A stretch of DNA of 64,000 bases from Lachnoanaerobaculum sp. ICM7 (GTDB taxonomy: Bacteria; Bacillota; Clostridia; Lachnospirales; Lachnospiraceae). Of this stretch, positions 48,259-50,882 are shown piece after piece. The number at the start of each line of letters is the position of its first letter. Within the stretch, counting starts at the first letter, position 1. The notes below the pieces were generated by a model. The model did not search any database. It worked only from the letters and a program-made list of their open reading frames with translations, and was not told the DNA's origin. Made by a program: the position numbers and the translations under genes. The DNA lies in contig NZ_ALJL01000023.1 in assembly GCF_000287675.1 (NCBI RefSeq), positions 1 through 64,000 on the forward strand, read 5' to 3'.

Positions 48259-48291
48259 TAATACAAGATATAAATCTGTTTTGCTGTTTTA

Positions 48292-48411
48292 TTATCTCTT
48301 AGACTTTACTATAAACCACCTTATAAGAAGTCCAAGGGCAACCCAAGATCCTATATATCCGACTACACTGACAACTGTTATTACAGAGTCCCAAAACAAC
48401 TGCATATCCAT
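48292..48411 (-). CDS. Small 39-residue membrane protein
   Basis: A short open frame encodes 39 residues starting MDMQLFWDSV, with one long hydrophobic segment (about residues 9-34) and a basic end (VKSKR). A very strong ribosome site, GAGGAGGAA, lies 4-5 bases upstream of the ATG, and a terminator follows at 48221-48258. This supports a real gene. It should be a single-pass membrane microprotein. It is encoded 140 bases after the cooS stop on the same strand. I do not recognise it. A regulatory subunit of a membrane complex is one possibility. Confidence 0.65.
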   Translation of the reverse strand: MDMQLFWDSVITVVSVVGYIGSWVALGLLIRWFIVKSKR

Positions 48412-48550
48412 AAGATTCCTCCTCATTCCCCATACAAACTTTCACGAAGCTTTTATTTAATTTCATTGTACATCTTATAAATCAGTTGTCAATAGCTGTG
48501 TCTTATTTGTAGGCTTTATGTATTTTTAATTCAATCTATTTCTGACCGAC

Positions 48551-50716
48551 TTATACTAAGGCTAATTCTTCATCTTTATGCACTATCTTATCAGGTACCA
48601 CCCAACCGAGGGCCTTTCTCTTTTCAATGATATCTGCAACTATTTTTTCTCCCAGAGAGTCGGGATTTGTATCTACAACCATCACAGAACCAAGTAATTC
48701 CTTTGTGCCCTCTTTCAAAAATTCTATTACATTCTTTGAACCGTGAATTTGAGCTTCCACACAGTGATATGAATTGATTCCCATAAGTCTGAAGCCAAGA
48801 GCCGCATCTATTCCCTTTTCATTACTCCACTCAGGAGATGAAAATGCAAAAGGCATTTCATAAAGCGGCTTACCGGCCTCACCTGCTACACCTGCAAAGA
48901 TTCCGCTTGACTTGGTATTGTCTATACACTCACCCACATGCCATACCGGTGGTAAATCTCCAAGGAATTCTTTTAAACTCTCACCTGCATGCTCCTGTCC
49001 CGAAACATTGCAATATCCCATCTTCATAAGCGGGAATGAGGCACATCCGTTTGTAAGTATCAAAATATTGTTTCTAAGAAGTGCATTTGCTACATCAATA
49101 ACACATTTCTCATATACAACCTTAGGATTGTTACAGCCCACTATGTTTACAATACCGAGTATCTTACCTTCCTTTACAGCCTCATATAAAGGCTTCATAG
49201 AGCCGTAGTGCTTATGCACATACTCAGGTGAAAATCCGACTTCGGCATCCACCTCATATGGCGGAATGTATACAGGTATACCCTGTCTGTCTTTAAAGCT
49301 TTCTATACCTCTGAGCACTATTTTTTCTGCAAGTTCTCTTGTCTCTCCTATATTTGAATGATGATGATCATATTCAAATCTCTCGGCACCCGGTAATCTT
49401 GCAGACTCACTGGTTGTAACAACTGTAGTTCTGAAGCATTTTGCAACTTCCATTATTGACGGGAATACATCCTGAACATCGGCAATCCAAAGATCAAGTG
49501 CTCCGGTACCAAGTACAAGCTCAGCAGATACTGCATTTGAAAGAGGAATAACTCCTGCATAGCGATACATTGCTGAAAGTCCTGAACAGCAGATTCCGTA
49601 GAATCTTATTCCCTTTGCACCCGCTTCTTTTGCAAGATTTATAAACTTCTCTTCCTGACCGACTCTTACAATCTCACTTACCAGGGTAGGCAGATGACCG
49701 TGAACCGCAATATTCACATATCCTTTTTTCAAAGCACCGATATTTACCTTTGATGTAACTCTGTCTCCAACTCCGAAAAGACCGTCAGTTGCTATTGATG
49801 TACTTACAACACCCGAGTATGTGAATGCAAGTCCACAACGAAGAAACTGTTGCATAATGCTCTTCCAGTCACCGTCAGTACCTACACCTGTTTTATGATA
49901 AGCCTCAAATACCTCATGGTAGGCGCTGATAGGTAGAATATCAAGCTCCTTCCACACTTTTTTCCTTTCCTCTGAACCAAGTGCCTCTATGATTTTATAA
50001 TCTCCCGGTACTGTACGGCTCATATCCTCTAAAAGTATATCTGCAAGTTCTGAAGCAATCTTTTTTATACTTCTTCTTTCCGTCTTTATTCCGAATGCTT
50101 TTGCGGTATCCTTTATCTTTTGTTGTCCCAGTATAGGTAAATCAAGCTTTCCTTCAGCAGCCCACTTTAGAGACAGAATAACTTCTCTACCGTGCATACC
50201 GTGTTGAGCCGCACCTGCAGCAGCTGAACGAAGCAAATTTCTTGCCACTATTAAGTCTGCATCCGCACCACAGACTCCCTTGGGACTCTTTGAAGTTATC
50301 TTACATGGACCCATATTACAGATCTTACAGCATATTCCGGCCATACCGAAACCACACTGTGGCTGCTGACTGTCAAATCTGTCAAATGTAGTATCAAATC
50401 CCAGCTGATTCTGGCGCAAAATCATCTCTCTTACTGCCGGATCCGGAGTATTTTCCAAAACCTCATCCTTTGACGGAAAAGTCTTTCTGTACTCAGATAC
50501 AGCATTCATATAATCTCTGATAAATGCTTTATCGTCTCCGTCCTCTTCATGGTCCGACTTTAATGTAATTGTCGGCACTCCATGTTCATCAAATCCTATC
50601 AAATTTCTATGGCTGTGAATATGGTCAACTCCATGCTTATGTTCATGATTATGTTCGTGACTATGATTGTGTTCGTGATTATGATTATGTTCGTGACTGA
50701 GTTCTTTCTTTCCCAT
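48551..50716 (-). CDS. cooS: CooS-family carbon monoxide dehydrogenase-like protein with His-rich N-terminus
   Basis: This is a 721-residue Ni-Fe carbon monoxide dehydrogenase catalytic subunit homologue (typical length about 640). Cysteines for the B and D clusters are present (PQCGFG, ICCKICNMGPC, VCGAD). C-cluster ligands seen are VHGH, ICCSG, VGCNN, TNGC and GECIDN. One expected ligand is missing: the family DVQC/DYQC motif here is DVQD (Asp416). The extra N-terminus holds 14 His in residues 8-36, alternating with Glu and Asn, a likely nickel-binding tail like CooJ. No cooF, cooC or acetyl-CoA synthase genes are nearby. CO oxidation is therefore uncertain. I chose the second ATG (50716), 6 bases after AAGGA. 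Confidence 0.82.
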   Translation of the reverse strand: MGKKELSHEHNHNHEHNHSHEHNHEHKHGVDHIHSHRNLIGFDEHGVPTITLKSDHEEDGDDKAFIRDYMNAVSEYRKTFPSKDEVLENTPDPAVREMILRQNQLGFDTTFDRFDSQQPQCGFGMAGICCKICNMGPCKITSKSPKGVCGADADLIVARNLLRSAAAGAAQHGMHGREVILSLKWAAEGKLDLPILGQQKIKDTAKAFGIKTERRSIKKIASELADILLEDMSRTVPGDYKIIEALGSEERKKVWKELDILPISAYHEVFEAYHKTGVGTDGDWKSIMQQFLRCGLAFTYSGVVSTSIATDGLFGVGDRVTSKVNIGALKKGYVNIAVHGHLPTLVSEIVRVGQEEKFINLAKEAGAKGIRFYGICCSGLSAMYRYAGVIPLSNAVSAELVLGTGALDLWIADVQDVFPSIMEVAKCFRTTVVTTSESARLPGAERFEYDHHHSNIGETRELAEKIVLRGIESFKDRQGIPVYIPPYEVDAEVGFSPEYVHKHYGSMKPLYEAVKEGKILGIVNIVGCNNPKVVYEKCVIDVANALLRNNILILTNGCASFPLMKMGYCNVSGQEHAGESLKEFLGDLPPVWHVGECIDNTKSSGIFAGVAGEAGKPLYEMPFAFSSPEWSNEKGIDAALGFRLMGINSYHCVEAQIHGSKNVIEFLKEGTKELLGSVMVVDTNPDSLGEKIVADIIEKRKALGWVVPDKIVHKDEELALV

Positions 50717-50844
50717 GAGCATTCCTTCCTACTTTACAACAAGAAACCTATTTACCTATTAATTTAGTATGTTTTAAGGTTTTTTGATTATAAAATATTT
50801 TTCATTCCATGTCAAGCAGTAATTTGTACTCTTTTAAAAACAAA

Positions 50845-50882
50845 AAATCGCTATAAAACCGGTTCTCGGTTTATAGCGATTT
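50845..50882 (-). terminator. Terminator after etfA
   Basis: A 13-bp stem, AAATCGCTATAAA (50845-50857) with TTTATAGCGATTT (50870-50882), encloses a short loop. T-rich sequence follows on the minus strand. Confidence 0.88.

Follow-up and report, generated by a model that had tools for sequence, protein, structure and literature searches.

Is a CO dehydrogenase (CODH) homologue that has aspartate in place of a cluster-binding cysteine an accident, a relic or an enzyme of its own kind? This question is raised by a cooS-like gene of the oral bacterium Lachnoanaerobaculum sp. ICM7, located in a stretch of 64,000 nucleotides (positions 1 to 64,000 of contig NZ_ALJL01000023.1; hereinafter, the window):

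48551-50722, minus strand: cooS homologue of 723 amino acids, assigned to Ni-CODH clade B, structural group B-1 (TIGR01702, PF03063, phmmer, tree)

The product scores 499 bits against TIGR01702 (NCBIfam anaerobic CO dehydrogenase; cut-off 478), matches PF03063 in a profile search and is aligned by phmmer, over its core, with solved CODH structures including CooSII. An AF2 model of middling quality (mean pLDDT 66), suitable for use at the level of the fold only, finds its best matches in CooS-V and other CODHs (Z 33-36), while HCPs reach 20-24; as modelled, the protein has a CODH fold. Its agreement with the proteins of L. gingivalis and L. orale (96-97%) places the window in Lachnoanaerobaculum, all six genomes of which contain the homologue. 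Either of two start codons may be the right one: (i) ATG 50722, from which the aspartate is residue 418; or (ii) ATG 50716, which is better spaced from the Shine-Dalgarno sequence and gives residue 416, the number used in the preliminary description. Residues are counted here from ATG 50722, and the segment of the 723-residue product that carries Asp418 is LWIADVQDVFPSIMEVAKCF.

The preliminary description held that this aspartate replaces ligand Cys333 of CooSII, the active clade F enzyme of Carboxydothermus hydrogenoformans, and that the remaining C-cluster ligands are kept. Both statements are borne out. The residues concerned are the following:

49469-49471, minus strand: Asp418 (Asp416 from the second ATG), at the ligand position of CooSII Cys333 (codon read, phmmer, alignment)
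50270-50356, minus strand: D- and B-cluster Cys123, 131, 132, 135, 140 and 151, with a type II D-cluster (invariant in the alignment)
50201-50203, minus strand: His174, equivalent to the acid-base residue His93 of CooSII (alignment)
49700-49702, minus strand: His341, equivalent to ligand His261 (alignment)
49586-49588, minus strand: Cys379, equivalent to ligand Cys295 (alignment)
49436-49438, minus strand: Cys429 (AKCF), equivalent to CooSII Cys344 (alignment)
49133-49135, minus strand: Cys530, equivalent to ligand Cys446 (alignment)
49043-49045, minus strand: Cys560, equivalent to ligand Cys476 (alignment)
48926-48931, minus strand: Glu598-Cys599, where Cys599 is equivalent to Cys526 and Glu598 replaces Ser525 (alignment)
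48815-48817, minus strand: Lys636, equivalent to the acid-base residue Lys563 (alignment)

On the minus strand, codon 49469-49471 is GAT, and the gap-free phmmer alignment puts Asp418 on the DYQC/DVQC motif of solved CODHs, CooSII among them. In an alignment of 168 rows (100 with Asp or Glu at this position, hereinafter carboxylate-333, and 68 with Cys333), the column of Asp418 is that of CooSII Cys333. The same alignment retains the equivalents of His261, Cys295, Cys446, Cys476 and Cys526, together with the B- and D-cluster cysteines, His93 and Lys563; the spacing C123-x7-C131-C132 corresponds to the type II pattern C-x(7-13)-CC. Thus, CooSII and the window protein have in common the fold, the B and D clusters, five of the six C-cluster ligands, His93 and Lys563, but they differ in that Cys333 has become Asp, Asp219 Phe, Ile567 Ala, Ser525 Glu and Gly581 Cys. 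Canonical Ni-CODHs (clades E/F) have the complete C-cluster motif, Cys333 included, whereas the window protein has Asp418.

A sequencing error or chance is excluded, since Asp occupies the 333 position in all 80 of the nearest loci, which come from other genome records. A separate sub-branch of eight loci (L152-L159) has Glu, and carboxylates are the only residues found at this position in the 100 rows of the carboxylate clade. Decay of cooS is likewise excluded, because Asp418 has been kept through synonymous codon changes (GAT 51, GAC 40) and the dN/dS of the gene against sister species is 0.03-0.06. That the protein is a degenerate, non-functional CODH, as the missing canonical ligand and the largely orphan gene might suggest, is hardly credible and has been largely refuted: not only is dN/dS that low, but the ligand columns stand at 100% (with the acid-base His and Lys in 100/100 carboxylate-333 rows), the promoter is conserved and the gene is present throughout the genus. 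In the tree, all carboxylate-333 rows, with the window protein among them, form one clade (SH-aLRT 100), whose sister is a group with Cys333 and Tyr219. Judging from this one split, Asp219 may have been lost before the carboxylate at 333 appeared.

The substitution had been taken for a peculiarity of one gene; it is instead the defining trait of a published group. According to Inoue et al. (2019; PMC6344411), structural group B-1 is characterised by (i) Asp or Glu at the second C-cluster cysteine and (ii) a His-rich N-terminus with 4-48 His and HxH repeats; its members retain both acid-base residues (His and Lys) and a D-cluster of type II. Its representative, WP_026514536 of Butyrivibrio (PMC6344411), is itself outside our sequence set, which includes Butyrivibrio loci of 77-78% identity. 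The window protein shares with this representative the carboxylate, the His tail, the type II D-cluster and the acid-base pair: Asp418, 16 His, the type II D-cluster, His174/Lys636, the other C-cluster ligands and a position within clade B are all found in it. By these traits the protein is a member of group B-1 and, hence, the case is not new; as far as the alignment and codon comparisons go, Asp418 is a real, selected and published variant. CODHs of clade B are widespread in rumen, gut and oral anaerobes, and account for 493 of 1380 human-gut genes (PMC11338639). A 2026 survey describes its genes as mostly solitary or beside transporters, with maturases largely missing, considers the clade perhaps non-canonical or degenerate, and states that none of the clade's enzymes has yet been characterised (PMC13056359).

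CooS-V, which had been offered as a precedent, is, like the window protein, built on a CODH scaffold in which a cluster ligand has changed. Nevertheless, it is a poor precedent: in group D-1 (the CooS-V type), Glu replaces Cys295, Tyr replaces the acid-base His and the D-cluster is of type III (PMC6344411), whereas the window protein keeps Cys295 (as Cys379), both acid-base residues and a D-cluster of type II. Something similar applies to the HCPs, which belong to the same superfamily, with the same fold and most ligand positions in common, but combine Glu at 295 with Cys at 333 where the window protein combines Cys295 with a carboxylate at 333. The Cys333 equivalent is kept in Mm HCP (Cys261; PMC10502027), and the host's own ordinary HCP has an aligned Cys there. 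An HCP-like active site can then be ruled out, since Glu295 is absent from the window protein and HCPs keep the Cys333 equivalent; by alignment, clade B departs at a position held by both CODHs and HCPs.

These comparisons bear on the proposal that a Ni,Fe or Fe-only cluster has been kept while the reaction has changed altogether (with hydroxylamine, NO or some other small molecule as the substrate, for example), as in CooS-V and HCP. We regard it as rather unlikely. The protein retains the acid-base His and Lys of the CO type, Glu at 295 (the hallmark of HCP and D-1) is absent, the retained cysteine of HCPs makes the window protein unlike them, and an ordinary HCP is already present in the genome. 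Pointing the other way are the replacement, as a set, of residues around the site (see below), the absence of CO-metabolism partners from the neighbourhood, the non-canonical function suggested for the clade (PMC13056359) and the hydroxylamine reductase activity gained by the C295E variant of CooSII, as cited in PMC6344411.

Besides Asp418, several residues set the carboxylate-333 proteins apart:

49823-49825, minus strand: Phe300, replacing CooSII Asp219 (alignment)
48803-48805, minus strand: Ala640, replacing CooSII Ile567 (alignment)
48761-48766, minus strand: His653-Cys654, replacing Ile580-Gly581 (invariant in the carboxylate-333 group)

Phe stands at position 219 in 100/100 carboxylate-333 rows and in 0/68 Cys333 rows. 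The carboxylate-333 rows also share Glu for Ser525, which is not found in the Cys333 rows and directly precedes Cys526, a Ni ligand in CooSII. Further changes specific to the group are Ala for Ile567, Gly for Ala564 (directly after Lys563) and Leu for Asn298. Asp219 and Ile567 adjoin the C-cluster in CooSII. This residue set arose only once, so that its covariation is beyond statistical test, and fixed differences are to be expected in any diverged clade; several of the changes, however, adjoin ligand or catalytic residues in sequence, and this adjacency is what, in the alignment, marks out the set from ordinary clade divergence. The set, which is added here to the published definition of B-1, offers concrete substitution tests; the text of Inoue et al. 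(PMC6344411) makes no mention of Asp219.

The doubt cast beforehand on ordinary CO oxidation was fair and gains further reasons from Asp219 to Phe and the other changes; the loss of Asp219 and Ile567 argues against ordinary CO turnover. Loss of function, on the other hand, finds no support, in view of the strong purifying selection and of the His tail or CooC found across the group. The reported absence of acetyl-CoA synthase was confirmed, with no PF03598 match in the organism's own genome (98.6% complete), which differs in this from CODH/ACS systems of the Wood-Ljungdahl type.

The replacement of Gly581 by a cysteine invites the alternative that the iron is bound by another Cys (the AKCF residue Cys429, or Cys654, which is specific to the group), with Asp418 as a bystander. 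Cys654 is indeed invariant (100/100 carboxylate-333 rows). But Cys429, formerly proposed as a stand-in, cannot be called one: its equivalent Cys344 coexists with Cys333 in canonical enzymes. Moreover, the strict Asp/Glu at 418 suggests a role for the carboxylate, and we hold the bystander alternative to be quite improbable. A bolder proposal is that of a new C-cluster type, in which the iron would be held by Asp/Glu, an extra His653-Cys654 pair would stand at the site, the pocket would do without Asp219, nickel would be loaded by a His tail replacing CooC, and the reaction would be other than CO/CO2 exchange; this combination seems unlikely to us.

Nickel loading brings in the N-terminus of the protein:

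50609-50695, minus strand: His-rich tail with 16 His, putatively Ni-binding (sequence, alignment; B-1 trait in PMC6344411)

Inoue et al. (2019; PMC6344411) proposed that such a tail inserts Ni. A search of the organism's own genome for CooC yielded short P-loop matches but no ortholog. Among the carboxylate-333 loci, cooC adjoins cooS in just three (L120, L121 and L160), all of them without the His tail. These three group B-2-like loci resemble the window in having Asp at 333, Phe at 219 and Cys at 581, but they differ from it in lacking the tail and in having cooC directly upstream, on the same strand. Their CooC is 35-40% identical to the acs-type protein; that of L160 has the Walker motif GKGGVGKT and a CxC motif, and its NCBIfam label is only that of a general MinD/ParA-type ATPase. 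Fewer than four His occur in one other row only, L037, which begins at the end of a contig. Since the three loci form one clade (support 99), the pattern amounts to a single contrast, to which an additional search contributed no new independent tail-less carboxylate-333 enzyme; a plasmid search gave one close relative, in Ruminococcus albus. For the Glu loci and the other loci taken from the genome search, the flank is about 1.5 kb and a more distant cooC is possible, and the flanks of the Cys333/Tyr219 sister group are too short to judge cooC.

Within these bounds, the His tail and CooC look mutually exclusive. The presence of CooC where the tail is missing suggests that carboxylate-333 enzymes still need Ni, which fits the insertion role proposed by Inoue et al. 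(PMC6344411), and it speaks against a loss of maturases through repurposing of the protein. This contrast is a second addition made here to the published B-1 definition. If the tail does stand in for CooC, these proteins would be self-maturing nickel enzymes. Following the variable tail, most carboxylate-333 proteins have a conserved block, HIHxHRxxIGFDxxGxP (residues 36-50 of the window protein, about 50573-50617, minus strand), which may be a defined metal site as opposed to a mere loose tail.

As for transcription, the region upstream of cooS contains three elements:

50787-50815, minus strand: sigma-70-type promoter of cooS, TTGACA-17-TATAAT (12/12 match; kept in six Lachnoanaerobaculum loci, the window included)
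50747-50773, minus strand: leader element of 27 bases, AACATACTAAATTAATAGGTAAATAGG, between the promoter and the cooS start (kept in six Lachnoanaerobaculum loci)
50841-50880, minus strand: hairpin resembling a terminator, between etfA and the cooS promoter (read from the sequence; stem kept in relatives)

Because of this hairpin and the conserved promoter that follows it, cooS is probably outside the bcd-etf operon, and membership in it is unlikely. The leader element, which occurs once in the window, is possibly an operator or an RNA element; an Rfam scan of the window gave no match.

The gene neighbourhood names neither CO-metabolism partners nor an electron partner. In most relatives, an NMT1-type ABC transporter lies beside cooS (36 of the 44 loci with full flanks). 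It is not beside cooS in Lachnoanaerobaculum, and a search of the genus for its binding protein found none (marginal matches only in the organism's own genome); accordingly, the window departs from the usual clade B arrangement, with no NitT/TauT ABC transporter adjoining cooS. In three sister species (L003, L004 and L005), cooS is followed after 350-410 bp by the start of a urease cluster (UreI, UreA, UreC and further genes), near which lies a gene for a CbiM-family transporter. Urease is another nickel enzyme. In the window genome, a MoxR-type ATPase and a second gene take the place of the cluster, and urease was not found in that genome beyond marginal matches.

Transporter, urease cluster and His-rich tail would all suit a nickel store, chaperone or sensor without an enzyme role, whose tail and CODH scaffold would capture Ni in order to report it or pass it on. 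This seems very improbable, given that a store would have no need of invariant B, D and five C-cluster ligands or of the catalytic His/Lys, and that the organism keeps cooS with neither urease nor the NMT1-type transporter.

The sequence, alignment, phylogeny, covarying changes, tail-versus-CooC pattern and gene context are observed, whereas metal content, ligation by Asp and reaction are what we infer from them. The cooS product is a self-standing clade B Ni-CODH homologue of group B-1, with the CooS fold, and its gene is probably transcribed alone from its own promoter. The carboxylate at 333 would most likely bind the iron that Cys333 holds in the Fe3S4 portion of the C-cluster, and the pocket surrounding it differs in several residues together (Phe for Asp219, Glu for Ser525, Ala for Ile567, Cys for Gly581), most likely a rebuilt one. 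Nickel would still be used, loaded in cis by the His-rich tail where CooC is absent, and electrons would leave via the D-cluster to a soluble carrier. CO chemistry is possible for the window protein: we see about even chances that its C-cluster, loaded with Ni and ligated by a carboxylate, has remained active on CO/CO2 or on a small molecule much like them, at an altered rate or potential. If such a cluster is catalytic, it shows how much change in the C-cluster is compatible with Ni binding.

Two minor observations concern the surroundings of the gene. Between cooS and the next gene (about 48290-48495, minus strand), a good promoter match, TTGACA-16-TACAAT at 48492-48465, is followed by a possible 39-aa membrane peptide (MDMQLFWDSV...), which recurs in part in L006 and L016, and then by a strong terminator. 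In addition, two families of small membrane proteins without a Pfam match (representatives of 137 and 108 aa) adjoin cooS in about 30 clade B loci, for instance L027 and L022.
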